Part shown: positions 11,345-42,327 of the stretch, in pieces
How positions within the stretch are numbered: the stretch's first letter is position 1
Layout: the number at the start of each line of letters is the position of its first letter
NCBI RefSeq assembly: GCF_026914265.1
Contig: NC_069125.1
Coordinates: forward strand, 68,461,207-68,525,206
DNA from: Mya arenaria
Lineage: Eukaryota; Mollusca; Bivalvia; Myida; Myidae
Direction of reading: 5' to 3'
DNA length: 64,000 nucleotides
Position numbers and translations under genes: made by a program
The notes under the pieces: model-generated
What the model saw: the letters and a program-made list of their open reading frames with translations, nothing else
Databases searched by the model: none
Told to the model about the DNA's origin: nothing

Positions 11345-14300
11345 CTAAGTGCATGCGACCGCGGCCGTAAACCCACATCCTTTAGTTGTTGCGTCAAACC
11401 ACATATTATTCGGGCATTTCTGAACGTACGGCCGGAAGTCGAAGCAGTTGATGTACTTGCTGCAGTCGGTCGGGTGTGGAAACAGTCCATTCTGCATGGG
11501 ACACTTGATGTCAGTGTAGCAGGATACGAACTCCTTGTAGTTGCACGCGCTGGCGCTCGGGTCGAACAACATGCCGGTGGAGCAGCGCTCCTGAACCGGG
11601 CGCCGGAAACGGCAGTGGTAGAAGTAGGCGCAGTTCTCAGGGTCGGGGAAGAGAAGGGAGCGCCCGTCACACTGTACCGGTTCCGGTTCTTTGCTTTGAT
11701 ATAGCTCTGTAACGAAATGGTTACATGAAGTTATTTTACAGACAACTTTGAAAAGTTACTCATCCCTTATGGACAATTAAATTACATAGTATGTTTTTAT
11801 ATGTTCATGGATGTCAACAACTATTTAATATGGCAGGCGCGCGCAGACCAGTCACTAGTTTAACGCCCCCTGTCAATAGATGGAGGACCAGGAGGGCATT
11901 TATGGTCATAATTATTGCCGAAATTTGACAGATAATGTGTAAAAAATGTATTACTTAATATAGATTTCATTTGCAATGTTTCGAATAAGCTTGATTTCCG
12001 CATAACAGCCATGATCGATTAGATGTTTACGTATGCAAACACATCAATAAACATTTGTCATAACTGAAGTGTATGCAAACCTATTAAATGTTTTAGGAAA
12101 CATGCATCGATTACGTTATTGTATTATTTGAAAAGCTTTTAATCGTTGTTTAAAAAGCAAGTAATACTCTGTTTACATTGAACAGTTATTAACATGCTAT
12201 TGTTGGTCAGAGTTACATACGTGGGAAGCAGTTTAGCTCTGTGACGTTAACGTTGGGGTTCATCTCGGAACAGAGGCTGGAGCCTAGGAAAGCCAACACA
12301 CTGGGGAGCCCGTCGATGAAGCGGCCCATTGAGAACGACTTGCAGTAATCAGAGCCGATGTGGGAGAACTCGGGACCCGCCTGGCCCTTCCCCACTCCGT
12401 ACAACGTAATACCATCACCCCTTGCCGCTTTCGCTGCCTCTATCACAGACTGACGCTCATCTATGCTCACGGAATCGTACGTGAACACCACCCCGATCTG
12501 CCTGGCATTGTTCCGACGGCCACTGCCTGTTTGCCCGGTGGGGTTGGTAAACATTTTTCGCATCAACGATAAGGCCGCAGTAAGATTGTTTCCGCCATTT
12601 AGTTCGTCCGCATAGGATAAGCGCTGGCTCATTAGCGTTATACGAGTGTTAATTTGTTTTTGACTCTTAAATGGCTGTGGCCATGCAAAGGGGACGGGCG
12701 TTTTCCCGTACAGGATGAGTCCGACGTTGACGTTGTCCCGGTCGATGTTGAAGAAGCTGACCAGGTTGATGAGGAAACGCTCGAACGGGAAGAACTCGTG
12801 GCCCGGCACTGCATCCGAGCCCGGCACGAGAAACATGATGTCAGCCTTGCCCGGACACTGGCCTGGATAAAGAAGTTAAGATATTAAAAGTGTAAACACT
12901 GTCTGATTGTAAACACTGCCTGGTTATAAACATTGTCTGGTTGATTTATGGAATCAAAGGTCAATAAAAATCAACGATCTCATTTATGATTATTTATTTT
13001 TACACTGTGTTGTAATCGAACAGTATGGCTGGTTACCGCTATCCCCCCCCCGGGCATCCGGACACACGGACGGACGGACGGACAGACGGTCGGTGCGATA
13101 TTAATATAACAGAAATGTTCCTTGGTATGCGTTTACAGTGTACAACAAAACAATTCCCTTATTAGTTTGCCATCCACCCTAGCCCTAAACATTGGCTTAC
13201 TGGTTGACGGTACATTTCCGAACAGGGCACAAATCCCGAACACCGGCTAAAACACGCGTTTGTTTACCGTCATCGATTATTCGAAGATCTAGATCAATAC
13301 AGAGGCCTGCCTTGGTCACACTTGCGAAGTTTCATCTTGTTTTGTTAAGTATTTTCTAAAAAAATGCCATTCAATGTTTATACCTTAAAGATCAAAATGT
13401 AGCACATGGGGGAATGACGTCAGAGGGCGTACGCGCATCTTTAGGTTTTGCAGTTATGCAGGTTTTGCAGTTATGTTGACCTACATTCAAGGTATTTATG
13501 ATTAGAAATCACGCTTTACATTTGAATTGCATGTTTTGAAAAAAACAAACATCGGAAACAATAAATCACTTTGCAGCTAAGTGTTTATTTAATATAGCAT
13601 ACTTATTAATTATAATTGTATGAATCGCTAATGCAAGTGTTCGGTATTTGTGCATAATTTACTGTCCATAAAATGAACGATTTTCGACATTAAATTGATG
13701 AGATCGTGAATCTGTACTTTGACAGATGTTGTCACATTAACCAAAGATGTTTCATACGCAATTTTAACTTACAACAAAAACTCTTCAAGATAATTGTGAA
13801 AAACCTCAAAAAGTGTTCGGATTTGCGACGTCAACCAGTATATAGCAATCAGTTATAAATTAATGTTATATAGGTAATATACAAAACATGCATTGCGAAA
13901 ATTAAACTTTGACAAGACTCCAAAACATTTTCAGAATATGCTTATAGTTTCCTTAAGTGCAGTAGAACTCGCCCATCTTAACAGCATTGTTGAAGATGAT
14001 TCAAAAGATAGAAGGAATTTAGTTAAGTGTTGCACATGCACATCTTTTTTATATAAAATTATTGTTTGAAATTGTTCCCGTTTGCACCCAGATTTGTGTA
14101 TAAAATCGCTAAGAATACAGCCTACATTCTCAGCCAATGCAATTGCAGATAGGCAATCATTAGCCAACTACAAAATTTAATCAATTTCAACTTTCGCGGG
14201 TGTTAAAAGGTCCGCCTACTGCCACTCATTAGATACACACTCCCTGCGTCAGTTTTTGCATTAACAATGTGTCAAGGCTTCCAGTCATATACCTAAAAAA

Positions 14301-14771
14301 CACTATGAGTTAGGGGAACATTTCTATGAATTTTACCAAGAGATAGGAGGTGAATGATGAATGATGTTGGCTCATAAAAGCAATTGTTGACGACGGACGA
14401 CATTCGACGCACAAAACCGATCACAATTGCTAATTAACTATGAACCGCTTGTGCTCAGCTAAGCTTAAAATTTCTTTTCTGAAATTCATGATTTACGCTC
14501 ATGAAACAACGACAATAATCATGTACAAATCTGGCCGATCCAGCAACAGCAGAACTGATATGTAACAAATGCCAAATACAAAGAACGGTATGCACATCGA
14601 CCGACATTAGCTGTGGCAATGATTTGGGTTGAAGATGCTAGCTTACTTAATGAAATATAACTCCAAATCAGTCAATTTCTCAATTAACCGAAAAAATGCA
14701 TAAAAAGTACCTGTGACAGAGGTTAATCCAATAACTAGGAAACAAACGACAGCTCCCTTCCAGATATCCAT
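11345..14771 (-). CDS. Secreted VWA protein with two chitin-binding (ChtBD2) domains, gene A
   Basis: Three coding exons on the minus strand (14771-14711, 12862-12221, 11706-11345) join in phase to 354 residues. Exon 1 encodes a signal peptide (MDIWKGAVVCFLVIGLTSVT) and follows a polypyrimidine tract and CAG at 14784-14786, so a 5' UTR intron is likely. Exon 2 encodes the whole VWA domain (residues about 25-225). The MIDAS strand reads DIMFLVPGSDAV, so the first metal-binding Asp is Pro and the DxSxS motif is lost; adhesion would have to be metal-independent. Exon 3 encodes two peritrophin-A domains (about 246-301 and 302-352), each with six cysteines. Signal peptide-VWA-ChtBD2 resembles the N-terminal architecture of the molluscan shell-matrix proteins Pif and BMSP. 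It is a clear paralogue of gene B, in divergent orientation, but its VWA domain lacks the four introns that interrupt B. Role inferred: chitin binding in a secreted matrix. Confidence 0.9.
13200..13838. mobile_element. TIR element with TA flanks in intron 1 of gene A
   Basis: The left end CTGGTTGACG and right end CGTCAACCAG are perfect inverted 10-mers flanked by TA on both sides. Further in, TTCCGAACA and TGTTCGGA are inverted again. About 640 bp, no coding capacity. A Tc1/mariner-class MITE is the best guess. Confidence 0.55.
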
Positions 14772-16554: not shown

Positions 16555-18612
16555 TTCTTAGAAATAGTAAACTTTCTAATAAACTTTCTTAGGGGTTGAT
16601 AAACTTGCTTAGGGCTAGATAAACTTTCTTAGGGCTAGGTAAACCTTCTTAAGGCTAGGTAAACTTTCTTAGGGCTATGTGAACTTTCTAAGGGCTATGT
16701 AAACTTTCTAAGGACTATGTAAACTTTCTTAGGGCTAGGTAAACTTTCTAAGAACTATTTTACTATTTTACGACTAGGTAAACTTTCTTAAGGCTAGGTT
16801 AACTTTCTTAGGGCTAGATAAACTTTCTTATGGCTAGACAAACTTTCTTAGGGCTAGGTTAACTTTCTTAGGGCTAGATAAACTTTCTTAGGGCTAGATA
16901 AACTTTCTTAGTGCTAGGAAACTTTTCTTAGAACTAGTAAACTTTTTAGTAAACTTTCTTAGGGCTAGTAAACTTTCTAGTAAATGTTTTAGGGCTAGGT
17001 AAACTTTCTTAGCGCTATATTCACTTTCTTATGGCTGGATAAACTTTCTTAGTGCTAGGTAAACATTCTTAGAATTAGTAAACTTTCTTAGGGGTTGATA
17101 AACTTGCTTAGGGCTAGATAAACATTCTAAGGGGTAGATAAACCTTCTTAGGGCTAAGTTAACTTTCTTAGGGCTAGGTAAACTTTCTTAGGGCTAGGTA
17201 AACTTTCTTAGGGCTATGTAAATTTTCTAAGGACTATGTAAACTTTCTAAGGGCTAGGTAAACTTTCTAAGAACTAGTTAACTTTTTTACGACTAGGTAA
17301 ACTTTCTTTGGGCTAGGTAAACATTCTTAGGTCAAGGTAAACTCTCTTGGGGCTAGGTAAACTTTCTTAGGGCTTGACAAACTTTCTTAGAACTAGTAAA
17401 CTTTCTAGTAACCATTTTTAGGGCTAGGTAAACTTTCTTATGGCTAGATAAACTTTCTTAGTGCTAGGAAACTTTTCTTTGAACTAGTAAACTTTCTAGT
17501 AAATGTTTTAGGGCTAGGTAAACTCTCTTAGCGCTAGATTCACTTTCTTATGGCTTGATAAACTTTCTTAGTGCTAGGTAAACCTTCTTAGAAATAGTAA
17601 ACTTTCTAGTAAACTTTCTTAGGGGTTGATAAACTTGCTTAGGGCTAGATAAACATTCTAAGGGCTAGATATACTTTCTTAAGGCTAAGTTAACTTTCTT
17701 AGGGCTAGGTAAACTTTCTTAGGGCTAGACAAACTTTCTTAGGGCTATGTAAATTTTCTAAGGACTATGTAAACTTTCTTAGGGCTAGGTAAACTATCTT
17801 AGGGCTAGACAAACTTTCTTAGGGCTATGTAAATTTTCTAAGGACTATGTAAACTTTCTAAGGGCTAGGTAGACTTTCTAAGAACTAGTTAACTTTTTTA
17901 CGACTAGGTAAACTTTCTTTGGGCTAGGTAAACATTCTTAGGACAAGGTAAACTCTTTTGGGGCTAGGTAAACTTTCTTAGGGCTTGATAAACTTTCTTA
18001 GAACTAGTAAACTTTCTAGTAACCATTTTTAGGGCTAGATAAACTTTCTTATGGCTAGATAAACTTACTTAGGGCTAGGTAAACTTTCTAGTAAACTTTC
18101 TTAGAGCTAGTAAAACGTTCTAAGGGCTAGTGGCTAGGTAAACTTTCTTGGGGCTAGGTAAACATTCTAGTAAACTTTCTTAGGTCCAGGTAAACTTTCT
18201 AGTTAACTTTCTGAGAGCTAGGTAAACTTTCTAGTAAACTTTCTTATGGCTAGGTAAACTTTCTTAGGGCTAAATAAACTTTCTTGGGGCTAGGTAAACA
18301 TTCTAGTAAACTTTCTTAGGTCCAGGTAAACTTTCTAGTTAACTTTCTTAGAGCTAGGTAAACTTTCTAGTAAACTTTCTTAGGGCTATGTAAACTTTCT
18401 TTTAACTAGTAAAATTTGTAGTAAATGTTCTTAGGGCTAGGTAAACTTATTTACAGCTAATAAACTTTCTAATAAACAATTTTAGGGCTAGTTTACTTTC
18501 TAAGGGCTAGTCAACTTTCTAGTAGATCTTTTAAGGGCTAGGTAAACTTTCTTAGGGCTAGTGAGATTTCTTAAGGTAAGGTAAACCTGCTTAGGTAAAC
18601 TGCCATTGGACT
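16555..18612 (+). repeat. 20-bp minisatellite, about 2 kb
   Basis: About 100 variable copies of TAGGTAAACTTTCTTAGGGC with frequent 10-bp insert-type units (AGTAAACTTTCT). Higher-order copies are visible: blocks around 17100-17400 reappear around 17640-18010. Many units hold GTAAAC and TTAG words but no coding frame is supported. Confidence 0.95.
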
Positions 18613-19246: not shown

Positions 19247-22200
19247 ATGGGTTCAATCTTCGTGTGGACTATAGCCCTGCTTTTTGTTGTCTGGGCTCCC
19301 ATGACCAAAGGTACGTTATATACTGATATATTCTTGCACTTCATTAGTTCAAAACATTCCCAAGAAAGCACATTTTCAAAAAATATATAATTTAAAGATT
19401 TTGTGTACAAATATTGTTAATCAATTATTTATCTCTAGTATTGTAGATTATCCAGTAACCTTGCAACAAAATTCGTTAGTAGCACGGCCAACTACCTCCC
19501 CAATGTATGATCATTTACTTATGTACTTAATGGTGTTGGACTTTAAAAATAGAAAAACACCCATGTAGATTTAGAAGAAATACTAGGTATAAAGACTGTT
19601 TCTGTTGCTATGCAATCACGTTTCATAACGGTAAATTGGTCAAGTCCCGTCAGCTAAGCGATGGTTTTGCCTAAAATTGCGTACTAGTAATCCACAGTGC
19701 TGGTTTCCAACGCCATATTATCGCACTAGTCCTTTAATGAAAATCAAAATTCATAGCTTTAATTAGCCTCTGTCATAATTCAATCTCCTTTTTTACGCAG
19801 TTAGACAGTTATATTGTTGTATAATGAGCGCTACTCAGATGGTGTCAACCCAGTAAGTACTATGACATAAACATTATCTGATCTATTTAAAGTATGTATA
19901 AAAAATGACGTTCGATAGGCTAAAAATATGATGCCAAGAGGAAAACATTTTTTGCGGACAGATAAAACCCCGCGGATATTCTCTGCGTGTGTGTGCGTGT
20001 GTGTGTGTTGGTGGGGAGGGGGGTGGAGGGCGGTGTATCCAGTAAAACAGTCACGGTTTATTGCATAATTAGAAAGAAGGAGTAGAATGGTCAATGAAAG
20101 GACAATGTAAATTTAATCAAACATAAAAATGGTCTTAACTGAAAAATTACGTAAACGACCATGCTGGAAATGAAGTGTTCTCTAGCCCGAAATATCGTAA
20201 CCATGAAAGGTTAATCAAGTTATATAGTAGGTAATGTCAAATTTGTCATGTTTTGAACACACATTCAATTTTATATTGATACATTTGTAGCATGTGTTTT
20301 CAATTTATATGATAACATTAGCATAATAACAACATACAGACTTATATCTTATTAGCATGAAAACTTGTTTACGCAAATTTGATAAATTCATTCTTGAAAT
20401 TGAAGGAAAACATCGTATTACATACTCTTTGATGTATGCATGAATAATTTTTTTTTGTAGATAAAAACTAAAAGATATAAAGAAATTTAAAACAGATTTT
20501 GGTAAGGAATAGCGCTTAAAAGTCTCTTATGACGATAAAAGAGCACTTGGCCTATTTTCATGTCAAATTACCCCACCCACGTTTTTGCCTTAAATTACAA
20601 ATTTGAGCTGAACATTTATACTCAGTGCTACCTCAATTTATCTCAACATTTCCATTTATCACATTAACAACTGTTGCCATTTCTTTACCACATACCTTAC
20701 GGGTTCTATATAATTTGGGGCATAATAGTTACATTTTACATCTCTATGGAACGCTCGGACACGGCGATAAAGTCATAGATATTTAGGAGCAAGTTCAGTA
20801 GCCCGATTTTTAAAATGGCATCAGGAAATGTTGATTTAAATCAGTTTGAACCATGTGTTGTTATTGCAGGCCAGTGTCGAGCTAACATGGGACCCGTGGA
20901 CCTGGTGATCGCAGTACCCGGATCTAACCATGTGTTGTTTGTTATTGCAGGCCAGTGTCGAGCTAACACGGGACCCGTGGACCTGGTGATCGCAGTACCC
21001 GGATCTAACCATGTGTTGTTTGTTATTGCAGGCCAGTGTCGAGCTAACACGGGACCCGTGGACCTGGTGATCGCAGTACCCGGATCTAACCATGTGATTC
21101 CTGAAAACGAGTTTAGTGCCTTCGAGAAAAACCTCATTAATCTCCTCATGCACTTTGCCATCCAACCTGACGAGTTCAACATTGGCCTAATTCTGTACGG
21201 AAAAACTGCGATACCCATTGCAACACCGCAACCATTCAAAACAAGAACCCAGGTAACAAATGATTTGCCCCGAACAAATCAAAAGCAAAATACTAAAAAC
21301 AAGAAATAAGGTCACACGACTTACCCCCAATAGTTAAAACCAGAAACAAAAGTAACACATAACTTCTCCAAACAGTTAAACCAAGAACAAAGAAAAAACA
21401 TGCCCTCACACACATCAAGAACTCATGTAAAGCAGGTAACACTCGTGTAAAACATGATCTCACAAACGGTTATAACAAAACATTTTAGAAAAAGAACTAG
21501 GGTACAACAACACTCAGCAACAAAAATGCATGAATAGTTCAAAGAAAAAAACAACTTGTATAGCTTGTTACCACACACCGATGCATAAAACAACATTGAA
21601 ACCCGTTTCAATCTCGCAATAATAGTCTAATAATGTTTCCGTTTCAGATTAACACGCGTGTGACGTTACTCACAGAGCGGATGCAGTACCAGCACGAACT
21701 TGGCACGAAACACGACGTAGCCGCCGCCTTAAACCTCATGATTAACGTAAGACTATCCCACACGTTGCCCTTGGATACCTGACCCATTGAAACATTCGCC
21801 CAATAATGGTTTTACAGATAAAAAATGAATTATAACTTCTGATGGACACACTCTTGGAATATCTGTTTAACGGTGTAATTCACTTGTTTGTAATATCACG
21901 TTCTATTCAGATTAAAAAAAAACAACAACATATAAAAATAATGAGTATGTTAATGATATTCTATTTGAAAAATTCTCATGCTCTTCTTATATAAGTTTTT
22001 TACATAGTGTACCTTGACTTCCTATTCCCATCTTATCTACATAGATGTTTAAAGTGCCACCCCCGGGCTACACGGGTAACATCCTGCGCGAGAGAGCCCG
22101 CCGTATAGGCATCATCTTCACGTTCGGTTCCACTCCCGCGGAGAACGTCGATAACGTCATTGGTACGTCAGTGTTTTGTAGAACAGATAATGGATTTAGT

Positions 22201-25200
22201 TCAGATCTATCATTCAACATAATAATATACAAATCAAGTCAAAATGACCCATGATCAATGAAAAGAATGAATATGTGTTCATATATACACGGCGATCGGC
22301 GAGTCATTACATGTAATAAACGGGAAGGGAAAAATGAGCATTCTAGCATACACTACGGATAATTGCACTAAGAACATCAATGTGGATGAATAAGATTCTA
22401 AAGAAATTACATGCTATATAGGTTTGATATATCAATAAGTAGTTGTGTTTTTACAAAAGTCATGATTACTTCTTTAGATGTAGTTATTCAACATCTTTAT
22501 GACTTTTATAATTTTAATTAAAATACCATATATAACGATGTTTTCGTAAAGGTTGCCGTTTTTTCAGATAATTTATCTAAAAGAACCTGTAAATTTGACA
22601 TATTTCACCATTGCTGTTTTGGAAGTGCATTTGTACATACAACGTATGTAGCGTAAAAATGATATATTAAAAAGCATCGAAAATGGAAGAAACAAAAAAT
22701 AATTCAGAACAACTTATATTGTATTAACCTTGGTTTTAAAATATTGAATCGAATTATGTCTCTTCCAATAATGAAATTTTCATAGTTAAATTCTTGCATT
22801 ATCAGCGGCAGCAACAAGGGCCAAGTCGGATGGTATCCTGCTGTACGCGCTTGGAAGCAACGGTACCAGCCGGGACTTTATAGAGCTTGGAACCGACTAC
22901 TGCCGTCTCTTCTCCATGGGAGAGTTCTCAGACGGCCTCCCCTTTGCAATGCCAGACCTCGCCAGTGGCATCTGCTCAGGTACACACGTGACACAGGAGA
23001 TACACGTGCGCATACGCGCGGAAAAATATAATCACAAACATACCAAACACAACATGTCAAATCTCTCAAGTATGAAAATATGAGGGGCTGTATTAGTTAT
23101 CAAACTTATTCAATACACTATTAATCTTGTGTGATGACGTCATGCAGAGGGTAAATTATATGGTTAACTGTTGTATTATTAAAAGCTAAGGTATTTGTTA
23201 CCTGGCACGAAGATCGGGCCAATAATGTGTCCAGTTTCAATGACCGTCAGTCTTAGACTTGGAACCTTATGAGCGACGAATTAAGGATATGAACTAAATC
23301 AGACTGAGTAAACAAATACATAAAAAGTTTTTTTTATATAAATGAATTAATTTAAATGACAACAACAATATTCTATTAAAACCATTTATCATATTCCGGT
23401 TTAATGAAGCAATTATTTTAGATGTGTGATATAACATTTCTTTTTTTCTACTGGTCAGAAAATATGTCACCCAATTTGTTTGTCAAAATAAAAATCAATC
23501 TGCAAAAATACACACTTAATTGGCAATATTTTAGCAAGTCATACGCTTATTACTCATTTGGTATTGATGATATATAATAGGACAATTGTTTGTTTCCATG
23601 TAAGATTGTAATATATTTCACCGAGTGAGCACCACAGGCTATTTAACAATGATGCTCACGTTGTTGGTTATTGGCTTTCATCGCTACAATATTTGCTACC
23701 ATTAAATCCCCTTAAACCGTTACAGTTTTTTTATATTGGCCTTTCGAGAAAAACTGCAGTTTAATATTGTTTTGATTAATGATATCATAAAACGTTTACC
23801 TCATAAACACTTTCTGGAAAAAAACAATTGTGTATAATATATAAATTATTTGGTAGTTCAATCAACGAAATGGCATATTTAATGTATTATAGCCTTTACC
23901 GCCATTATCATATATTGTTTTGTTTTATTATATATGCTTTCCTGTTCTTTTTAGAGATTAATCAGTGGAATACTAATGATATTTCACTTTTTCAAAAAGC
24001 GAAAATATCAATTTGATTTCAATATTTTGAAAATTTAGCCCATTAAAACATCAGCGCGCACAGAACAACGGACAGAACATCAACGACGTCATTTCCGAAA
24101 TGACGTAACGTGCGCATACACGCGTTCTGATAACATGCAGTTGAAATCTTTTAATGCCATTGCGCCAGTCATCACACTTTTGCCACGGTGCCCATTTAAT
24201 ATGTGAACATATTGTACAATCATAGACGGAAACAAACAATTATTCTCCTTTTCATATTACCATGAAATTTATTCTACATATTCATTCATTTTCAAAAAAA
24301 GCGTGATTTCATTTTAACATTGTGGCATTTATGTTTCAGAGGTTGATCCGACTGTCAATATAACGGAAAAGAACTGCTTCCCTCGTGAGCTCCTATACTT
24401 TATTTAGTAAATCAAATAAATTTTCTTTATTATTTCCGTAAACATGACTTTTAGTACATCGGATTTGAGTACGAAACAATCATAGCTCATTTACAATTCT
24501 TGTTTTGAAGGGAATGGTATTGTCGCTTTTACTTATCTTCAAACAGCATCTAAGGTAGTTGTCCAAACTTCTTTGAACAAAATTCATATTTTCTACTCGA
24601 AACGTATTGTTTGATTACAAAAACGAAAATGAATTAGCAAACTTCTACACTCAATTTAAATGGCATTTATGATTTCTAAGGATTCCGTGTTACAATAAAA
24701 ACTAAGATTGAACGTCATTGGAATATTGACAGCTCAGGCGTTTTGTTTACTAAAAACTCTCGTGTGTTGCGGCTCAATTTAGCCTGTTAGTCTGTAAAAA
24801 AAACCACTATGCAACACAGTATTTGGACTGTATACTTGACAGAGTTTCTATGTTATATATACACACCCCATCGTCCCCTTTTAGGGAGGTATCCGAAGGC
24901 GCATGGTATCGGCGTTTCCTGTCAGGTGGAGGGTAACATGATGCAGGCAGACCCCAACAACTGTGCCTACTACTACCAGTGCGAATATTTTGACAAGAAC
25001 CCTCGGCGAATGCAGTGCTCAGCGAGCACCCTGTATGACCCCCTGACTAAGATATGTAACGCCTTGAGTAGCGTCGCCTGCTACAACGATATCACGTGTC
25101 CTGATGATAAGCCCGCCCTCCATGCGCACCCTATGGACTGCAACAAGTTCATTAATTGCTACAACGACCGCATTCCGCACGTGCAGTCGTGTCCCGATGA

Positions 25201-25270
25201 CCAGGTGTTTGACCCTCAGACTCAAACCTGCAATAAGACGTCCACGGCGTGTATGCACCAATACGGTTGA
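19247..25270 (+). CDS. Secreted VWA protein with two chitin-binding (ChtBD2) domains, gene B
   Basis: Seven exons (19247-19310, 21032-21252, 21648-21746, 22045-22162, 22806-22979, 24340-24384, 24885-25270) join in phase to 368 residues. Exon 1 encodes the signal peptide MGSIFVWTIALLFVVWAPMT. Exons 2-6 encode one VWA domain (about 23-235); its MIDAS strand reads DLVIAVPGSNHV, so the key Asp is lost as in gene A. Exon 7 encodes two six-cysteine peritrophin-A domains. Shared signatures with A include GLILYGKT, PQPFK and DYC.LFSMG, and both have an N-glycosylation site just before the chitin-binding part (NITEKNC, NVTELNC). The exon 2 acceptor and first VWA strand occur as three in-frame 81-bp copies; acceptors before 20870 or 20951 would add 54 or 27 residues. 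Polyadenylation signal at 25352. Role inferred as in gene A. Confidence 0.9.
19983..20035 (+). repeat. GT run followed by G-rich run
   Basis: In intron 1 of gene B, alternating GT/GC is followed by GGTGGGGAGGGGGGTGGAGG. It has four or more G runs, so Z-DNA and G-quadruplex formation are possible. Confidence 0.7.
20849..21096 (+). repeat. Triplicated 81-bp intron-exon junction in gene B
   Basis: Three near-identical 81-bp units start at 20870, 20951 and 21032. Each has its own polypyrimidine-CAG acceptor followed by codons for QCRAN(M/T)GPVDLVIAVPGSN. AACCATGTG occurs both in the intron just left (20849-20857) and in the exon at 21088-21096. This short homology probably seeded the duplication. 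Each unit is 27 codons and stays open. Confidence 0.9.
24086..24106. repeat. Perfect small palindrome with ACGTCA/TGACGT half sites
   Basis: ACGTCATTTCC and GGAAATGACGT arms overlap in an inverted pair inside intron 5 of gene B. The half sites match the CRE/ATF core TGACGT. Function is unproven. Confidence 0.4.
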
Positions 25271-28900: not shown

Positions 28901-31900
28901 TTAGACAAACATTTGTACTTCCAGATCGCGTTTGGCTCCATTCATGCTTGGGCACCACAGCAGGAAAGTACGTTTTTATTGTTAAGAGCAAACAAGTAAC
29001 GCATCTTTTCCGTTGAATATATCTTTGAACTTTATGCCTGTTTGGGAATACGACGATATTGTTTCTATTTGACTAACAATCATCTGAGTATTGTCTTATC
29101 GGGTTTTTCTACCTAGTAGAAAAGAAATAAGAAATAATGAATAATAAATAACAAAAAAATCAACAACAAACACACTGTAAGCAAACTTTGTTTCCCTAAG
29201 CGTGCGGGCGGCCTGCAGATGTGTACTTCCTATTGGACAGCTCGGGGAGCATCAGTCCGGGCGACTTCCGGAAAGAGCTGCGTTTCACAAACGACGTGAC
29301 AGAGATGTTTGATACAGACAGTGGTGCCGTTAGGGTCGGAGTCCTCAGCTTTAGGTATCCGTAGGATACTTGATCAGTAAACAGTGATGTTTGATGGGGA
29401 AAAATCAAGTTATTTAGAAAAAGAACTGTTTTATTCAACATATTTCACAGAGTATTAACTCGTACGGCCCGTTGCAAATGTTGTGCGTTCAAGCAGACTG
29501 GCGTTCGTTTGTTTCAGTTGTACAATTCACCAATTTGTATTGTCTCAGATGACAATGTAGCATATTGCGTATGGTATTTCCCGCTTCAGTCAGACGGTGA
29601 CTCCCCACATTGGCCTTGGTGAGTACGCAGACCGGTCGGACCTACTGACGCGCATCGCCAGCGTCCCGTATGAGGGGCGAGGAACCAACACAGCGGAAGC
29701 ACTGGCCTTCCTCTGCGACAAGGTACCGTGGCTTTGTTTTACTATGTTATTTGTTGACGCACAATTACAGAGGTTAATTTAACAAGACACCCATGTTTTG
29801 CAGCCGTAAACATTCAGCTGCTGTGTTTGTCACCATATTATTACGATTTGGGGATGCAAGAGACTAAAATGAATCTGAAAATTTGAAAAAAAAAATATGT
29901 TGCGACTCACTTCGGCATTTCATTTTTCAAAGTGTTCATGATACATTGAATAGCGCAATGAATATACTTTAGGGGATGTCCTTGGAGCAGACTCGGCCGG
30001 ATGTTCCGCGCGTAGCCATCGTGTTGACTGACGGCATGTCGCAAAACATGACGGCCACGTTGCAGAATGCGGCGCTTGTGCACCGCTCTGCAATCACCGT
30101 GTTTGTCATAGGTGAGGATAATAAAAGAACTTAAACTAAGTAATGACAATTTCTGTAACAAAATAAATGTTTTATGGAATTAAAATAAACGTCATATTAA
30201 AAGTTGCGGAATGGCTGCCCCGTTAGGCATCCCACATTAAGTGTCGGTTCTAAACGCCCTTGCTAAAGCCATACCTTTTTTTAGAGCTGCAAAATAAAAA
30301 TCCCGACCTAATACATCACTTGGTAACTACAATGTTATATCATTTGTACCATTATCAACGCAGTGCAAACTAGGGTGAATTCTTTGTGGTCCTGAAACAT
30401 AGTGATTACTTATGTCAGTTATTTTAGAAATACAAACATTACTATATACTCTTCAATTAAATTCAACAAACGTTTCAACAAAGGGTTGGTTTAAAACTGC
30501 CAAGCAAGTCACAAATAGAAACACATCAAACCACATTCCAACCTTGTCTGATAACAACATTGAAAAATGTCGTAAAAGCAACTTTGTTAAATAACTGCAT
30601 TTGTTCACAATCCTCTCTTTACAGAATCCACTTCCTGATATTATTACTGTCCCTGGAAGCTCTCTTGAGGACATTATTGTTTCTGAACAGGAAGCGAAGG
30701 ATGCTATTAGGTGTATGACTCCTTCAAAGGCTAGTGCCCAGGTCTAATCAATCCTAGACTCATTTGTTCTGGTGGCTCCATTGTCCACCTTTTCCTCAAA
30801 ACTCATTGATTCCGCCACATTTCAATCGCCTTGGAAACTTGTAAATGTAACTCATATACTCTGATATGTCTGATCCTTCCAAGCCCTCAAGCTATCTTCC
30901 TGTTTCTCTTCTTAGCTGTCTAGACAAACTAATGGAGCCCTTATTCACAAAAGGCTTTACAATTACGTTGTCAGCAACACTCTCATTACACCGTATCAGT
31001 CTGGCTTTATCAAAGGGGATTCTACAGTAAATCAACTTACTTTCCTTTAAAATGAAGTATGTCAAGCTCTTGATGAGGGAAAGGAGGTGAGGGCGTTTTT
31101 GTGATATATCTAAGGCTTTCGATCGAGTCTGGCATAGAGGCCTTATTCACAAACTGTATTCTTTTGACATCAGAGGGAATCTTCTCAACTGTTTACATCA
31201 TATCTTACCGGTAGGAAAGAAAGAGTCGTTGTCTTGAATTCTTCCTCATCTTGGTCTGATATGCATGCGTGAGTGCCGCAGGGCTCTATTCTCGGTTCTT
31301 TTCTTTTTCTCATTTATATGAACGACATCGTTGATGAAGCTAACGTTCGTTTATTTGCAGTTGATACTAGCATGTACATTGTGTTCGAGACACCTGAAGC
31401 TTCAGCTGCTGTAATCAATGCTGATCTTCAGAATCTATCCACTTGGTCAACTAAATGGATTGTCACTTTCAATCTTTCTAAAACAGAATCAATTATTTTC
31501 TCTAGGAAACGTGATAGAGGGATTTACCCCCTTTGTTTATGTACAATACTCCAATTCAAAGTGTTCGTTTTCACAAGCATCTTGGTCTCTGCCTTTCTGA
31601 TGATGCTAAATGGAAAGATCATATCACTTCGGTTCTCGACAAAACTCGGAAGAGATTGGGTATCATGCGTTCCCTTAAATTCATACTTTTTCGTGCTTGC
31701 CTTCAAAAAATGTATTTATGCCCATAAGACCGCTTTTGGCTAATGGGGACGTTGTCTGGGGCAACTGTAGTGCTAACTAACAGAGTGAACTAGAGGCACT
31801 AAATTGTGTAACATACATAGTCTTATGATTGATTTGAAGTGGGACACCCTTGCAATAAGAAGGAAAAAACATAGGCTTCTTCTTTTTTTTATAAGATGAG

Positions 31901-34900: not shown

Positions 34901-35608
34901 AGTAAATCCTTTTGATTGTATTGTTTATATTATAAAATATAACGTATGTACTAAAATGTTCCCTTTATGGTGTCTCCTGATCAAATCTCTTTTTCGATAA
35001 ACACATAGTGTCGTTCAAAGGGGACCTCTCGTATAACTACTATTACTATTCTAGGATGCTCCCCGAAGCGGCCGCTAGACCTCGTATTTGCAGTGGACAC
35101 AGCGGCCATCGGCGCCCTTAATGCCCGCCACGTGCTCGCGTTCATTGCAAACTTCTCGGAACATATCAACATGGACGATAACTTGGTCACCATTACGACC
35201 GTCACGAATGGGTGCGCTAGTGGGGATATAGATGATCGGCCATCCGTAGACGCTCAGTCCGTAAAGGACAAACTGTCATTCTATGAGGTTCCAAGGTTTA
35301 ATGAGCTTCTTGGAAACATGCGTCTCAAAGCCGCAGACGGTCGTAGAAACGCGGCTCATATAGGAATCGCTTTTGTGAACGCCCGTTTGACAGAGAGCGA
35401 ATTCAAGGAGTCCCGGAAGGAGAAGGGGCGGGCCAAATATCAGCGGACGACCATATTCGTGGTTGGCGTCGGCCCGCACGTAGACAGTGGGCAACTGAAG
35501 GCACTCACCCTGAACGGTGGCGAGCTGCTACAGGCATCAAGTTTCCCCGGCTTGATGGAAGTGGCCAACCACCTCCTTTATAGCATGTGCCTCTTTGGAG
35601 TTGTTTAA
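25959..35608 (+). CDS. Secreted protein with two VWA domains, gene C
   Basis: Eight exons (25959-26000, 28925-28967, 29201-29354, 29590-29722, 29973-30111, 33767-33901, 34827-34901, 35055-35608) join in phase to 424 residues. The signal peptide spans the first junction (WNWVLV then IAFGSIHAWA). VWA1 (about 33-205) has a complete MIDAS: D41-S-S43-G-S45, T112 in GRGTNTAEAL and D144 in VLTDG, so divalent-cation ligand binding is expected. A Pro-rich linker (PVTPAPDPNQ) leads to VWA2 (about 245-415), wholly in the last exon, where the MIDAS reads DTAAI and is degenerate. No chitin-binding domain is present. Matrilin- or collagen-associated VWA proteins have similar tandem A domains. Intron 1 holds a MITE; intron 5 (3.6 kb) holds a LINE relic. 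Placement beside two VWA-chitin genes suggests a matrix role. Polyadenylation signal at 35742. Confidence 0.88.
26187..26541. mobile_element. Foldback MITE, copy 2
   Basis: A 355-bp element with perfect 25-bp inverted ends (CTTTAAAGCTGCACTCTCAC and its complement). The interior is also broadly palindromic (AAGACTGCTGACAA on the left, TTGTCAGCAGTCTT on the right). It lies in intron 1 of gene C and is the same family as 994-1219. Confidence 0.9.
30600..32660 (+). mobile_element. Degenerate LINE (non-LTR retrotransposon), RT fragment
   Basis: Inserted in the sense direction in intron 5 of gene C. Translated pieces show, in order, EAKDAIRCMTPSKAS, PSSYLPVSLLSCLDKLMEP, DISKAFDRVWHRGLI, PQGSILGSFLFLIYMNDIV and LFAVDTSMYI, matching fingers-palm blocks of Jockey/CR1-type reverse transcriptases. 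The catalytic FADD is changed to FAVD, and the frame shifts several times. The 3' part keeps a Cys/His block (IIDCPLCTCTAIEDPSHFL) seen at the end of such ORF2 proteins. The endonuclease region is missing, so it is a 5'-truncated dead copy. The exact clade is uncertain and the right border is approximate. Confidence 0.8.
33560..33690 (-). mobile_element. Possible tRNA-derived SINE
   Basis: On the minus strand AGAGTTCGAATATC resembles a tRNA B box, and the GCACTATG...GCGGTCGC stretch about 35-60 bp before it could be a worn A box. It lies in intron 5 of gene C, just left of a C-run and exon 6. No tail repeat is obvious. Confidence 0.3.
34207..34330 (+). repeat. Degenerate short tandem repeat
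   Basis: Four to five worn copies of a 25-30 bp unit based on TCTAAGATTGTTTGTCTAAG in intron 6 of gene C. Confidence 0.6.
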
Positions 35609-35759: not shown

Positions 35760-36718
35760 AATAAGCAAGAGTATACTTGATCAATTTGATCAAACAATAA
35801 TTCATCATGAAACCAACGAAATACTTAATGTCACTATCCTATCACAGAAATTCGTATTCAACAACGGGCTATTTTAAGGCTAGCTGCACGTTAAAATTAA
35901 TTGGTTGACTTTTATTAATTGTTGGATAATATTTACCATTCAATAAACGGTTTTGCTTACTTTGACCACACCAAAGATTTGACCTGAATGGTACAGTAAC
36001 TGTTGGCTGCTGGTCTATTAATAAAACCTTCTTTTACTGAATGTCTGTTGTTGTCTGTTTTAAATTTGCCATAAAATGTGCCATCATCATTTGCTTATTC
36101 TGATGGGGGTCGCAACCATATTCATACACATAAATGCCGAAAGTCAGTGTCTGTTCCATTCATAAATGCCACACGGACATGACTTGAAATGGTTTTATAG
36201 AACACACAGAACATTTCTTTATACTAATTTCTAATTTCTGGCACAGTGAGTTTCGAACGTAATGACCTTTTACGCGTTTGCCCTACCATGGTCAACATTG
36301 AACTTTGTGAACAGTAGAACATTGTGTCCGCAAACATGAAAACACTTTTAAGTATACCATATCCGTGTTCCTATCAGGATTACGTACACAGGACAGGGTA
36401 GGAAGGTTCTTTTCCCTTTCATTTCCTTTCGTACGGTCTTAGTCAGCGACTCAAAGTTTGGAAATACGCGCATGAAACACCAAATAGTTTTCACTTTTAC
36501 GTCACCCAGTCAATGGAATTCTCTCGTATCTCAATAAACTTTGATTAATTTTGACATGAGTAGGTAAAAGGGATAATCTAAATTAAACATCAGTATAAAT
36601 ACCGCAAAGATGATTGATAATATTGTAAACACTCAGATAACACATTTCCGCGGCTATAAATATAAGTCTGCAAGCAGAAATTAACAGAAACAGATTAAGG
36701 CACTGATCTATAAAATAG
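35760..36718. other. Spacer between gene C and the retroelement
   Basis: AT-rich, without exon, RNA gene or element end that I can recognise. It is the left flank of the Ngaro-type insertion. Confidence 0.5.
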
Positions 36719-37028
36719 TACCAGCTATTAACTATAAAATAGCTGTTGTTATCGAGAATAATCAACCCGTTTTCATCACCTTTATGTTTACATTAGCAAT
36801 ACACATCTAATCATTCAACAGATCCGCTTGAGGGCGCCTTACAGTATTACGTAATCAAAAGATTCCCGCGCCCGCCATTTCGTTAAAGCATTTCATTGGT
36901 TAAAACTTAAAAAGAGATTCAGCGCATGCGCTAAATCGAGCGCGCAACCCCACCGATTCACTTTCGTTCAGGCAGTCGAACCGAAAGGTCAGTTTTTTAA
37001 GAGCTAGGTTTGCTATTTAAGAAAAAAT
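36719..37028 (+). repeat. Split direct repeat A1 (promoter-like)
   Basis: A 310-bp left repeat of the Ngaro-type element. It contains a CCAAT-type word (TTCATTGGTT) and the palindrome GCGCATGCGC at 36922-36931, which matches the NRF-1 consensus. These suggest it supplies the element's TATA-less promoter. Confidence 0.85.
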
Positions 37029-37266
37029 AGTTGAACGAATTAAAATAGTTTTGCTTAGTTAGTTGATGAATTATAGTACAGAACATTACATATACATTCA
37101 AATCATTAAATAAATGTTTCTATTTTATTTGTTTTGTCTACTTTATCAAGAACTCGATCAATTTGTCGAGGAATGAGGTTTTCAAACACGCACATACATA
37201 TGTATATATAAATTGTAAATATTTATACGTCAGACGACGGTTATTGATTTTGCTTTCTTTTTCCGG

Positions 37267-38436
37267 ATGGCATTCCCGCTTCGAGATATTGTGGAAGAGT
37301 TTCGGGCCGCTAAGCGGGCAAGGAGGACCCCTCCAGTACAGACAGGCCAGACGCCCAAATCAAACACAATCGCAGCAGTGCCCGCATCAGCCCCGACGGT
37401 GAATTCCGGTCTAGCCGCGGCTACAGCTGATGCATCTGTGGCGCTGACTACCGGTACTGTGGCTCTGGCAGATGATGGTCCTATATCGCCCATAGACTTG
37501 GCTAATACGGGGAGGGTATCCACACCTCAGGTCGCGTCATCATTCCTCGCTGGCAACGGTTTACAAACCGCCGCCCTGGAAGGCCTCCAGCCATTGAATG
37601 GGCCCATCAGCATTCCGCATCAGGTATCGGTCGCGAACGGTGAACAAGGTGCAGGTACGGAACATTTCCTTTCTGATCCGTTGCCTTTAACGGTTATTGA
37701 TAACACAGTGAATCAGATGCCAAGTGTCTTTTCAAATGTTGGGTGCAACATCTCGCATCAGATTAAGAATAAAATTGTGTCTGGTGCATTTGTAGAATTC
37801 TCTTCTTTGATTGATTCTAAATCAGGTGTCGAGGAGTCAAATAAATCGTTAATGATAGGCCAGGACGGTCGGCTAATTATTGACAACAAGTCCGCACAAC
37901 AAAAAGTTAACGACATCAGTTCGTGGACAGATGCTTTCTTAGTATACATGTCCATTTTTTTGGCTGCTCATCCGGGCAGGACTCAGGAATTGTTAAAATA
38001 TGGCCGTGACATCCGGCTTGCTGCAAAAAAGCACGCCGGCCTAGGCTGGCGTGATTATGACCAGCAGTTTAGACTTAGATTAGCCGCCGACCCAACTGGC
38101 CTGTCCTTCGCAAAAATAGATTACGAATTGTGGCTTCTTTGCATGGGTCCGTCCTTGGCAGTGGTAAGCAATATTGGCAAACTTGCCGAGAAGAAATGCT
38201 TCGATTTCAATTATAGACAATGCCATCGAATAGTTTGTGCTTACCGACATAGTTGTATGTTCTGCAATCTTGATCATCCTTGTAGGTCTTGCGTTAGCCA
38301 AAGAAGTTCTATCCCATACCCCGGGCCCCGACCTGTCCGTGACGCAGCTCACCTCGCGCGGACAAGGTTTCCACTCGTCCGGGGTCGTTCCTTTACTCGC
38401 CCTTACCTCGGGTCCAAGTTCTCCCCCCGTTACTAA
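37267..38436 (+). CDS. Gag-like protein of the Ngaro-type element
   Basis: An open frame of 389 codons with an Ala/Thr/Pro-rich N-terminal third, a helical middle and a C-terminal Cys/His cluster (CHRIVCAYRHSCMFC and HPCRSC) that could bind nucleic acid. Position first in the element and this tail fit a DIRS-order Gag. The frame overlaps the RT frame that follows. The start ATG at 37267 is plausible. Confidence 0.75.
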   Translation: MAFPLRDIVEEFRAAKRARRTPPVQTGQTPKSNTIAAVPASAPTVNSGLAAATADASVALTTGTVALADDGPISPIDLANTGRVSTPQVASSFLAGNGLQTAALEGLQPLNGPISIPHQVSVANGEQGAGTEHFLSDPLPLTVIDNTVNQMPSVFSNVGCNISHQIKNKIVSGAFVEFSSLIDSKSGVEESNKSLMIGQDGRLIIDNKSAQQKVNDISSWTDAFLVYMSIFLAAHPGRTQELLKYGRDIRLAAKKHAGLGWRDYDQQFRLRLAADPTGLSFAKIDYELWLLCMGPSLAVVSNIGKLAEKKCFDFNYRQCHRIVCAYRHSCMFCNLDHPCRSCVSQRSSIPYPGPRPVRDAAHLARTRFPLVRGRSFTRPYLGSKFSPRY

Positions 38437-40084
38437 CAACGATTCGTGCCCCGTCCGTCGTCTTAAGTACCCCGGCTACAGCCCCATAAACACATCAAAT
38501 TTAGACGCATTTTTACAGCGATATCCCGATAAGGTCCATGCAACATTGTTAAGGAATGGTTTCCGATTTGGTTTTAGTTTAGGATTTGAAGGGTCGCGCG
38601 AACCCATCGATGCAAAAAATTTGCGATCGGCTAAACTCCGACCAAGCGTAGTTTTCGATAAATTGGAAAAAGAAATATTGGAGGGCCGAATGGCCGGGCC
38701 GTTCATTAGTCCACCGTTTAAAAATCTTCGAATTTCTCCCATAGGCTTGGTACCGAAGTCTGATGGCGGTTGGCGCCTTATCACTCATTTAAGCTATCCA
38801 CGGGCTGGCGGTAGTGTTAATGACGGCATAGTTAGTCAATTAAAATCAGTATCGTACACAAAATTTGACATAGTGGCAGACATGATATTTAAATTGGGAA
38901 GATCAACGTTAATGGCAAAGCGTGATATAAAATCTGCATTCCGGCTACTTCCAATATCACCTAAAGACTTCGAATTATTAGGCATTAAATTTGATGGCAA
39001 AATTTATGTAAACTTAAATTTACCTTTTGGCGCCAGTTGTGCACCATATTATTTCGAGGCATTTTCGACCTTTATCCATTGGCTGGTAAAAGACATTTCA
39101 AAAATTCCATCACTTGATCATTATCTGGACGATTTCATATTTTGCGGGGCACATGGAACTGGCAACTGCCAACATTTACTTTCCACTTTCCATCAAGTAT
39201 GTGTACAGTTGGGTGTACCAATTAACGATGTCAAAAGCACGGACCCTTCCACTGTAATAGTTTTTTTGGGTTTGGAAATTGATTCTTCACAAATGCTTAT
39301 TAGAATACCCCAGCACAAAATCGCAGAGTTGAAGTCCCTTATTTTGCTCTATATAACTAGGAAGAAAATAACGTTGCGAGACCTTCAGTCACTCGCTGGT
39401 AAATTTTGCTTTTTCGGCCAGGCAATTCGTTCAAGCAGAGCTTTTTTGCGGCGATTTTATGATGCAATGTCCGGTATAAAACATGAATTTCATAAAATAA
39501 GGATAACAGAAGGAATGCGCGAGGACTTCCGCATGTGGCTGTTTTTCTTAACAAGTTTCAATGGGGTATGTTACATTCCCGAAAATGCTTGGTTGGAAAA
39601 CGAACATTTACAACTTTTTACCGACAGCGCGGGTAGAGCCGACCTTGGCGGCGGCTGTTACTTAAACGGCAATTGGGCATTTTTTCCATGGCCTCTTGAC
39701 TGGAGCAAACATGAAGTCATGAAAGACATAACGTTTTTAGAAATGGTCCCTGTGCTGCTTAGCTTGTACCTTTGGGGTCCCGAACTAAAAAATAAGAAGA
39801 TAATTTTACGAATCGATAACGAGGCTTTAGTTGCCATAATCAATAAACAGTCTGCGAAATCCAAACGCGTTATGCACATTCTCAGACATTTTGTGTTAAG
39901 ATGCATGCGCCATAATATTTTGTTTAAGGCTGTCCATATTCGAACAAAACTTAATAATATCGCTGATTCTATTTCACGAAAGCAGTGGGCGCGCCTTCGC
40001 CAGCTGGTACCCGACTTGGCAGAAAGGGCACCAATTCCACCACTTTTTCAGAGCATGATTTACGAAATGAGGCTCGACGACTAA
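38237..40084 (+). CDS. Reverse transcriptase-RNase H of the Ngaro-type element
   Basis: An open frame of 615 codons; the true start may lie later than the frame's left edge. RT blocks visible include WRLITHLSYP, KRDIKSAFRLLPI, LPFGASCAPYYFE and the catalytic YLDDF. The RNase H part has DSAGRADLGGGCY, LEMVPVLLSLYLWG and IDNEALVAIINKQ with the expected acidic residues. The arrangement and sequence are typical of DIRS/Ngaro polymerases, and there is no aspartic protease or DDE integrase. Confidence 0.9.
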   Translation: MLTDIVVCSAILIILVGLALAKEVLSHTPGPDLSVTQLTSRGQGFHSSGVVPLLALTSGPSSPPVTNNDSCPVRRLKYPGYSPINTSNLDAFLQRYPDKVHATLLRNGFRFGFSLGFEGSREPIDAKNLRSAKLRPSVVFDKLEKEILEGRMAGPFISPPFKNLRISPIGLVPKSDGGWRLITHLSYPRAGGSVNDGIVSQLKSVSYTKFDIVADMIFKLGRSTLMAKRDIKSAFRLLPISPKDFELLGIKFDGKIYVNLNLPFGASCAPYYFEAFSTFIHWLVKDISKIPSLDHYLDDFIFCGAHGTGNCQHLLSTFHQVCVQLGVPINDVKSTDPSTVIVFLGLEIDSSQMLIRIPQHKIAELKSLILLYITRKKITLRDLQSLAGKFCFFGQAIRSSRAFLRRFYDAMSGIKHEFHKIRITEGMREDFRMWLFFLTSFNGVCYIPENAWLENEHLQLFTDSAGRADLGGGCYLNGNWAFFPWPLDWSKHEVMKDITFLEMVPVLLSLYLWGPELKNKKIILRIDNEALVAIINKQSAKSKRVMHILRHFVLRCMRHNILFKAVHIRTKLNNIADSISRKQWARLRQLVPDLAERAPIPPLFQSMIYEMRLDD

Positions 40085-40980
40085 TTGGCTGTTCTATGTC
40101 CGGCAATACATTACAGTCGTATCAAGTCGGTTTAAACCGGTTCTCTAATTTTAGGCTTACGTATCAATTGCCAAATTTGTGGCCTCCATCCGTTGACAAT
40201 TTGGTATTGTTTTTCTCATCTTTGTCACTTGATGGCTTAACCGCCAATACAGCTCGCCTCTATAAATGTGCTATCGGTGCCCAATGCAAGCTTTTTGGGT
40301 TCGCGGATACCACCGAAAATTATATAATCACTAAAATTATAACAGGCATGGGAAGGAATACACGCGCAAATACAACGCGACTTCCAATAACGGCACAATT
40401 ATTATGCCTTATTGTTGAAACACTCCCATCCATGTGTATAAATATGTACGAAAGTGCCCTATTTACAGCGGCATACACTTTGGCTTTCTTTGGGTTCTTC
40501 CGCGTAGGAGAATTAGCCGTAACACGACAGTCTGTTGTAAATCACACGTTAGCATTTAGTGATGTAAGATATACGAGCGACGGCAATTTATTGCTTACAC
40601 TTCGCAATTCAAAGACGGATAAAGAGTCAAAGGGTTATATTATTCAGATCAATAAAACCGGTAAAAGTGTTTGCCCTGTACACAGTTTAAATATTTTTCT
40701 GGCACGCAGGCCAAAGATTAACGGTCCGTTGCTGTGTCATATGGATGGTACTCCTCTTACACGCACACAGTTTTCTTCTGTATTAAAAAAATGTTTATCT
40801 GTTAGGAACCTCGAATTTGCAAAGTACAACACACATTCATTTCGCATTGGGGCAGCCACAACCGCCGCTATGGTGGGTTGCACCACGGAACAGATAAAAG
40901 AGGCCGGTAGGTGGACGTCAGACGCCTACAAACGTTACGTTCGGCATGAAACTATACATTTGGTTCCAAATTTACTTTAG
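39985..40980 (+). CDS. Tyrosine recombinase of the Ngaro-type element
   Basis: An open frame of up to 331 codons; the beginning overlaps the RT frame and the real start is undetermined. A SAM-like N-terminal part is followed by a catalytic domain with FFRVGELAV (first Arg), HSFRIGAATTAA (H-x-x-R), GRW and the nucleophile region YKRYVRH. This enzyme integrates a circular DNA copy, in place of the DDE integrase of LTR elements. Confidence 0.9.
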   Translation: MGAPSPAGTRLGRKGTNSTTFSEHDLRNEARRLIGCSMSGNTLQSYQVGLNRFSNFRLTYQLPNLWPPSVDNLVLFFSSLSLDGLTANTARLYKCAIGAQCKLFGFADTTENYIITKIITGMGRNTRANTTRLPITAQLLCLIVETLPSMCINMYESALFTAAYTLAFFGFFRVGELAVTRQSVVNHTLAFSDVRYTSDGNLLLTLRNSKTDKESKGYIIQINKTGKSVCPVHSLNIFLARRPKINGPLLCHMDGTPLTRTQFSSVLKKCLSVRNLEFAKYNTHSFRIGAATTAAMVGCTTEQIKEAGRWTSDAYKRYVRHETIHLVPNLL

Positions 40981-40982
40981 GT

Positions 40983-41594
40983 TTGGTTCATCACATCATA
41001 TTACATATTATTTTATTTTATTTTTTTGCTTATTTAGATAGAACGACGCGCGTGTGGGTCGTCGGTTCTTCAATTATTAGGCATGCCTTTTGCTACGCCC
41101 GATCGCACGACGCGAACCTGGGAATTCCCAATAGTGCCTTTTGGTGGCAGGGCTATGGAGGTCTAAGCCTTAAAGCGCTTGTAAGGAAAGTCACGTTTTT
41201 GAAACATATTAATGAAGATGGACTACCTCATGTCATGATTATTCACATTGGGGGAAATGACATTGGCCAATATCCTACTAAAGTGTTAATGGCAATTTTT
41301 GCTAAAGTAATAAGAGCGCTTAAAGATTTATTCCCATCAACTACTCTCGCAGTATCGCAGATAACGCCTCGAACAACATGGCGCTATTCGAGTAATAAGC
41401 GTGCAATGGGAAATGTAAGGCGCCGATTAAATGGCTTTGTAAAAAAAACCATATTAGGTATTGGGGGTTCCTTCATTTCTCATAGTATAACGCCTGAACA
41501 ATTGAAGTCCGACGGTGTCCACTTGAACGAGCATGGCAATGCGCTTTTGATTCGCGACTTTAAGTCCTGCGTGTGCAGTTTGGTAAATCATTGA
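40983..41594 (+). CDS. SGNH-hydrolase domain protein of the Ngaro-type element
   Basis: An open frame of about 200 codons right after the recombinase stop; the true start codon is uncertain. It shows the SGNH/GDSL blocks: VVGSSIIRHAF (block I Ser), GGNDIG (block III Asn) and DGVHLNEHGN (block V Asp and His). The hydrophobic N-terminus may be an artefact of start choice. SGNH ORFs are a known accessory of animal Ngaro elements; the substrate is not known. Confidence 0.8.
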   Translation: MVHHIILHIILFYFFAYLDRTTRVWVVGSSIIRHAFCYARSHDANLGIPNSAFWWQGYGGLSLKALVRKVTFLKHINEDGLPHVMIIHIGGNDIGQYPTKVLMAIFAKVIRALKDLFPSTTLAVSQITPRTTWRYSSNKRAMGNVRRRLNGFVKKTILGIGGSFISHSITPEQLKSDGVHLNEHGNALLIRDFKSCVCSLVNH

Positions 41595-41859
41595 AATAAA
41601 TATCATCAGTTTTGTCCAGCGACGCTTTATGATACGCTAATACACGTTTACGGTATGCTTTACCGTTCATTCAAGTTGTTGCTGAGTAATGCGAGGCTCC
41701 TTTTCTTGTTGCTTTTTTGCTGCCGAGCCAAAATTTCCTTAAAGTATGAATTGTTTTATAAGATAATAAACCCAGTTGCTGTTTCGGGTTGTGATGCGTG
41801 TTATTTCTTTATGCTTATATTTTGGCGAGTTCGCTTCTAGTACCTAGAATCTCACATTG
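41595..41859. other. Region between the last ORF and repeat B1
   Basis: AT-rich internal part of the retroelement. No separate feature was recognised. Confidence 0.4.
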
Positions 41860-42327
41860 GCGTTCGGCAGCACTTAAATTATGATATTTATTAAGCTATT
41901 GGAATTATATAAATACAGACAGTATACTTAAAGTTAAAATGCTAATTTGTGAGTTCCGGCCATAGTACACCTTGACGGAATTCACGTTCAAATACTTAAG
42001 TTTATTTCATAATCAAACTCGTAAAGCCCAGTGGGGGCTATTCAAAACTGCTGCTTTGCCCTTTGGGGCGGTCGCCAGTAATACGCCAAGTTGGCAGGTG
42101 ACCAGATTGCTTCGTTCGCTGTTCATGCTTGTGAATTCGTGCTTGTGTAAATAACATGGAGCCTCGCCATTAAATCCAAACTTTAAATGTAAATAAAACA
42201 AAATAAAATTTTGACAAGTTATTTGCTCTGTTGTTTTATATAGCAAAAACGTATGGTTATGATTGAAATTAGAGTAAGAGAAGCTAAGCGCTTCAATCGT
42301 TCTTGTAAGTTGAGGATTTATCGATAA
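41860..42327 (+). repeat. Split direct repeat B1
   Basis: A 468-bp repeat, identical by eye to 42969-43436. It abuts A2 directly at 42327/42328, so this junction reproduces the sequence expected of the circular intermediate. Confidence 0.9.

Follow-up and report, generated by a model that had tools for sequence, protein, structure and literature searches.

A tandem duplication across a 3′ splice site in Mya arenaria that is probably recent and largely hidden by splicing

INTRODUCTION

A 248-bp array at 20849–21096 on the forward strand of DNA from the soft-shell clam Mya arenaria holds the end of intron 1 and the start of exon 2 of gene B (LOC128229907) three times over. The question raised by this locus is which protein the gene makes: proteins that contain the repeated segment once, twice or three times, or a single-copy protein from which the added DNA is spliced out. 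The window referred to below is the whole stretch of DNA analysed, 64 kb in length, and positions are counted from its first letter.

A Mya arenaria reference is described in PMC10663159. It was built from PacBio reads by FALCON-Unzip assembly, followed by gap filling and by polishing with 10x linked reads, and its MAKER annotation drew on RNA-seq of six tissues of the reference clam. Judging from the species and the names, the window comes from this assembly and the protein MAR_010092 from its annotation.

RESULTS

Anatomy of the triplicated array

It was found that AACCATGTG occurred four times on the forward strand of the window, at 20849, 20926, 21007 and 21088. These occurrences delimit three units of 77, 81 and 81 bp, after which a 9-bp fourth start follows. 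The features of the array are:

20849–20925, + strand: copy 1, 77 bp, consisting of 21 nt of intron end and 56 nt of exon start, with the original intron flank before it; ATG variant
20926–21006, + strand: copy 2, 81 bp
21007–21087, + strand: copy 3, 81 bp, identical to copy 2
21088–21096, + strand: fourth AACCATGTG, exonic, reading NHV
20870, + strand: acceptor 1, first exon base (422-aa protein)
20951, + strand: acceptor 2, first exon base (395-aa protein)
21032–21252, + strand: exon 2 as annotated, from acceptor 3 (368-aa protein); the database proteins P0001 and P0002 both start exon 2 there

The 81-bp units of copies 2 and 3 were without any difference. In copy 1, the T-rich tract has a single gap of 4 nt, and one T/C change gives ATG for ACG and Met for Thr (copy 1 is spelled ...AACATGG and copies 2 and 3 ACACGG). 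A tandem repeat was reported by TRF at 20858–21096, with a period of 81, 3.0 copies, 99% matches and a score of 471; given this score, the array is not a chance occurrence. The period-81 repeat crosses the splice junction, spanning the exon start at 21032, and the acceptors are spaced by 81 nt both times. A tandem duplication of intron end and exon start, as an earlier sequence-only reading of this DNA had claimed, was thus confirmed by the AACCATGTG positions, the comparison of units and TRF. That reading had described three copies of 81 bp; the triplication stood, and so did the length of copies 2 and 3, but copy 1 is 77 bp long.

The identity of copies 2 and 3 had been taken as a sign of a recent event. 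The identity holds and recency is a reasonable conclusion from it, although short-read polishing might also even out copies, so that the base-level identity of these units could be affected. An artefact of assembly or polishing, which produced the third copy or made copies 2 and 3 identical, is nevertheless very improbable. The sequence of PacBio reads, FALCON-Unzip, gap filling and 10x linked-read polishing outlined in PMC10663159 would allow such an artefact, and short reads would not be uniquely placeable between identical 81-bp units. Against this, a 248-bp array should be short relative to PacBio reads, and the differences of copy 1 show that no fewer than two distinct copies exist.

Gene B encodes a VWA and CBM_14 protein

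Reading of the splice junctions, checked by translation, gave seven coding exons for gene B. Besides exon 2, these are:

19247–19310, + strand: exon 1, start codon and signal-peptide-like stretch (the latter from sequence reading only), donor AAAG/gtacgt
21648–21746, + strand: exon 3
22045–22162, + strand: exon 4
22806–22979, + strand: exon 5
24340–24384, + strand: exon 6
24885–25270, + strand: exon 7, coding part, with two CBM_14 stretches (Pfam profiles) and the stop by translation

Because the 368-aa translation was identical to P0001 ('uncharacterized protein LOC128229907 isoform X2 [Mya arenaria]') over the full length (100% identity), this model was supported. The second Mya protein, P0002 (MAR_010092, 356 aa), has the same N-terminus as P0001 and 12 residues fewer further on, at the end of exon 4 (22045–22162), which would fit an alternative donor.

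A VWA domain (PF00092) was detected at 43.9 bits (curated cut-off 23.8) and CBM_14 at 63.9 bits in two stretches (cut-off 22.1). The structure model of gene B, made with 13 sequences, had a mean pLDDT of 77.1 and a pTM of 0.70, and showed the first strand at residues 31–38 and the following first helix at residues 46–60 (368-aa numbering). The top matches of the fold search were VWF A3, collagen VI alpha3 N2 and the mussel byssus protein PTMP1, all VWA domains; a search of the gene B sequence against solved structures gave no match at E 0.001. The metal-site motif after strand 1 of VWA domains is DxSxS. It was absent after strand 1 of gene B, which reads PGSNH, and P replaced the Asp of the motif in all 20 database proteins retrieved and in the neighbouring gene A. 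With its signal-like start, the gene B protein looks like a secreted-type protein. A shell-matrix function was considered for it and is not claimed. No paper was found in a literature search for four locus names of the VWA and CBM_14 family.

Surroundings of gene B in the window

A comparison within the window is provided by a divergent neighbour of gene B's family:

11345–14771, − strand: gene A, with a single copy of the segment in the internal comparison

Gene A has the VWA and CBM_14 architecture of gene B, but its VWA domain is encoded by a single exon, while four introns interrupt this region in gene B. Between the two divergent genes, a 20-bp minisatellite was found at 16580–18595 (90.5 copies to 18304 and related rows to 18595), which ends ∼0.65 kb before the gene B start codon. 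A satellite of 10 kb with a 52-bp unit occupies 50693–60704 (TRF, 192.8 copies, 88% matches).

An apparently complete tyrosine-recombinase retrotransposon lies at 36715–43264, with an RVT_1 match above the cut-off (42.8 bits) and integrase-like and GDSL-like matches that were both below the Pfam cut-off. Its split direct repeats, 36715/42324 and 41856/42965, were each reported to be 100% identical over 300 nt, an arrangement which we take to be that of Ngaro/DIRS-type elements. The reverse-transcriptase-like frame at 31273–31743 (21.1 bits, below the cut-off) is probably a broken retroelement. Downstream of gene B, a weaker VWA-like frame was observed at 35009–35608 (21.7 bits, below the cut-off) and an LPMO_10 frame at 44131–44361 (35.7 bits, cut-off 23); judged from the frames, they perhaps belong to a cluster of secreted matrix or chitin-related genes. 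The frames at 43671 and 45553 had no Pfam match, and the window had no Rfam match at gathering thresholds.

Reading frame and possible protein products

All three acceptors are intact GCAG sites, and translation showed that acceptors 1, 2 and 3 are in frame, with 422, 395 and 368 aa, respectively. The earlier proposal that each copy brings its own acceptor and 27 open codons was therefore borne out, as was the inclusion of the first VWA strand (residues 31–38) in the repeated segment. Together with this strand, the exon part of the repeat takes in the N-terminus beyond the signal-like stretch, and every extra copy adds 27 residues, among them one cysteine and another version of the strand. The junction of exon 1 with copy 1 by acceptor 1 would read GCCAGTGTCGAGCTAACATGG; joining of exon 1 to acceptor 3 would give one copy, followed by ATTCCTGAA 65 nt past the junction. 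The peptide spanning the join to an extra copy would be HVLFVIAGQCR.

A duplication keeps the reading frame by chance in about 1/3 of cases. The 25-nt intron-derived piece was without a stop in 58% of 20000 shuffles, and for this reason its openness is not evidence of coding.

The right edge of the array

In 19 of 19 other family sequences (P0003–P0020 and gene A, with P0018 and P0019 near-identical) two residues stand between PGx and the following V/I-P, whereas gene B has three, NHV. These three residues are the reading of the exon-side AACCATGTG. Because there is one residue more at this place than in all 19 relatives, AACCATGTG is perhaps a product of the duplication. In this interpretation, which draws on protein homologues, the exon-side AACCATGTG would be the truncated start of a further unit left behind by the event, and we consider such a footprint more likely than a pre-existing seed. 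The alternative is a 9-bp microhomology that was present before the duplication. Such a match could have arisen by chance: 340 of 5000 base shuffles had a 9-mer in common between exon 2 and the final 120 nt of the intron. The microhomology-seeded duplication of the sequence-only reading was accordingly upheld as to the presence of AACCATGTG at both edges, but the seeding itself became doubtful in view of the additional residue. If the footprint interpretation is true, even the single-copy protein carries intron-derived codons.

Copy number in database proteins

The 368-aa query retrieved 14 proteins from 2631 candidates, and the 422-aa query 18 proteins from the 7992 candidates sharing most words; both together make up P0001–P0020. 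None of the 18 proteins returned for the 422-aa, three-copy query had extra copies. The segment motif was counted 0 or 1 times per sequence in the 20 database proteins and gene A, and the zeros (P0015, P0020 and gene A) were spelling variants. P0001 and P0002 are both single-copy, with exon 2 from acceptor 3. Protein-length variation, which had been suggested earlier, is thus unsupported so far. It is not refuted, since the name 'isoform X2' implies an isoform X1, which may use acceptor 1 or 2; this isoform may sit inside the cluster of P0001, which is the representative of two member sequences.

The bivalve proteins P0003 (Dreissena), P0008 (Mercenaria), P0009 (Mactra) and P0011 (Sinanodonta) have the Pfam domains of gene B, 46–63% identity to it and a similarly short start before the PG motif. 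Unlike gene B, they are single-copy, and their loop after the first strand is one residue shorter. Gene A is single-copy at the DNA level; the 18 other database sequences have at most one copy at the protein level, a comparison that is blind to intronic copies. These counts, together with the identity of copies 2 and 3 and with the description of bivalve genomes as highly heterozygous in PMC10663159, are in keeping with a segregating copy number, where this haplotype has three copies and other clams one or two. Such an allele is quite conceivable, if somewhat short of probable, and it would be compatible with the explanation preferred below.

Branch-like sites and acceptor strength

The branch-site consensus is yTnAy. 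A match to this consensus does not prove that the site is used. Two sites were found at the joins of units:

20924–20928, + strand: CTAAC branch-like site, 23 nt before acceptor 2, at the join of copies 1 and 2 (consensus match only)
21005–21009, + strand: CTAAC branch-like site, 23 nt before acceptor 3, at the join of copies 2 and 3 (consensus match only)

CTAAC is created at the unit join, where the exon end GGATCT meets the next start AACC. Acceptors 2 and 3 are therefore each preceded by CTAAC at 23 nt without an intervening AG; of the 17 positions counted there, 11 are T and 11 are pyrimidines. Upstream of acceptor 1, yTnAy occurs just once within 70 nt, as TTGAT at 35 nt, and here an AG does intervene. 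At this acceptor 8 T and 10 pyrimidines were counted in 17 positions, and the T-rich tract is 4 nt shorter than at acceptors 2 and 3. Because CTAAC and the longer T-rich tract are found at the later acceptors and neither at acceptor 1, the later acceptors may be stronger. Genes A and B have 7 other introns, in 5 of which an AG-free yTnAy was observed 17–30 nt before the acceptor; the remaining two (B4 and B6) lack it and are presumably spliced all the same. Where copy 3 ends, there is a third CTAAC (21086–21090), which no acceptor follows closely; another unit added at this point would again get a branch-like site.

Acceptors 2 and 3 are locally identical, and nothing local favours 3 over 2. 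By analogy, distance may decide between them. The flanking introns are 1559–1721 nt upstream, depending on the acceptor, and 395 nt downstream. In PMC9225289, the upstream site is preferred overall in both groups of competing 3′ sites. Transcriptome-wide, this preference is significantly weaker in long-intron (exon-definition) events; between long introns, according to the authors, the sites closest across the exon are favoured.

The local identity of acceptors 2 and 3 would also suit a near-random choice among the three acceptors, giving a ladder of one-, two- and three-copy proteins. Three intact in-frame GCAG acceptors and the isoform X1 implied by the name of P0001 are consistent with such a ladder, and for human UBC, PMC10809524 reports stochastic splicing in which the number of repeat monomers varies. 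However, no retrieved protein had extra copies, and the cysteine and second first strand that come with every extra copy might harm folding. We regard this choice as unlikely.

Comparison with known repeat-associated splicing

Internal tandem repeats at human exon-intron boundaries have been described by De Grassi and Ciccarelli (2009; PMC2812944). There, the repeat spans the boundary as it does here, and human transcripts keep the repeat or splice it out. The human cases are genes in segmental duplications with novel introns, whereas in the clam, as read from DNA alone, an existing intron gains alternative ends. In its anatomy, the clam array matches these repeats.

In the dual-specific splice-site array of human UBC (PMC10809524), tandem coding units have a splice site at each unit boundary, as in the clam. 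The UBC boundaries act as donor and acceptor; the clam boundary is AG/GC without a GT donor, and its junctions, all CAG/GCCAGT, did not qualify as dual-specific, a GC donor being formally possible.

GC donors are rare, and donor sites follow a consensus. It could be imagined that the junction doubles as such a GC-type donor and that the units leave singly as 81-nt introns. CAG/GCCAGT resembles a GC donor at all three junctions except for the C at +3. On the other hand, the unit boundary is without a GT donor, the best GT sites in the array are weak, with 7 of 9 consensus positions (21094) and 6 of 9 (CTG/GTGATC), and gene A has the same GCCAGT start. Such stepwise removal is hardly credible.

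Novel introns that arose by tandem duplication in Drosophila (PMC2891723) also involve duplication at splice motifs and an extra copy that splicing can remove. There, an exonic AG/GY proto-splice site is duplicated to give a new intron; in the clam the duplicated element is a genuine acceptor, and a new intron is not required. Intron gain by this route did not apply here, the duplicated AG being the original acceptor and no GT above 6 of 9 being present within the three units. A literature search on tandem or duplicated 3′ splice sites found no paper.

DISCUSSION

The explanation we favour, and consider probable, is that a stretch across a 3′ splice site was recently duplicated in tandem and that splicing to the final acceptor largely conceals the duplication. 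The stretch would start ∼20 nt upstream of the acceptor of intron 1 and include the first 56 nt of exon 2; it would have been duplicated in the Mya arenaria lineage, and an identical third copy would have been added later. Each added unit would bring a nearly complete 3′ splice site, with CTAAC from the join of GGATCT and AACC. Because each added unit carries CTAAC 23 nt before the next acceptor, the spliceosome would favour the later acceptors over the original one, and above all the last, which has the shortest distance across the exon to the downstream donor. As a result, copies 1 and 2 would turn into intron sequence and the protein would remain single-copy, while the upstream acceptors may yield minor in-frame isoforms. 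The lasting change of the protein would be a single added residue in the loop that links the first strand to the first helix, where NHV replaces two residues.

Several points stand against this explanation. The implied isoform X1 may use acceptor 1 or 2, and annotation pipelines may pick the acceptor that is consistent with homology. The upstream preference in both 3′ event groups of PMC9225289 is only reduced for long introns. The pyrimidine difference is only 11 versus 10 of 17, and B4 and B6 also lack an AG-free site.

A more far-reaching version would treat the unit as a self-supplying splice cassette with its own branch site, T-rich tract, acceptor and 27 open codons, whose copy number grows harmlessly in the population; the upstream acceptors would leak graded proteins with extra strands and cysteines, altering the cross-linking of a secreted chitin-binding matrix protein. 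We see this as a long shot.

In the favoured explanation, gene B would be a clean and apparently young case in which splicing hides a duplication that would lengthen a folded domain, and in which the new acceptor gets its branch-like site from the exon itself. The case also suggests that a duplication of this sort can alter the protein slightly but permanently, perhaps by one residue, though the extra copies are spliced out.
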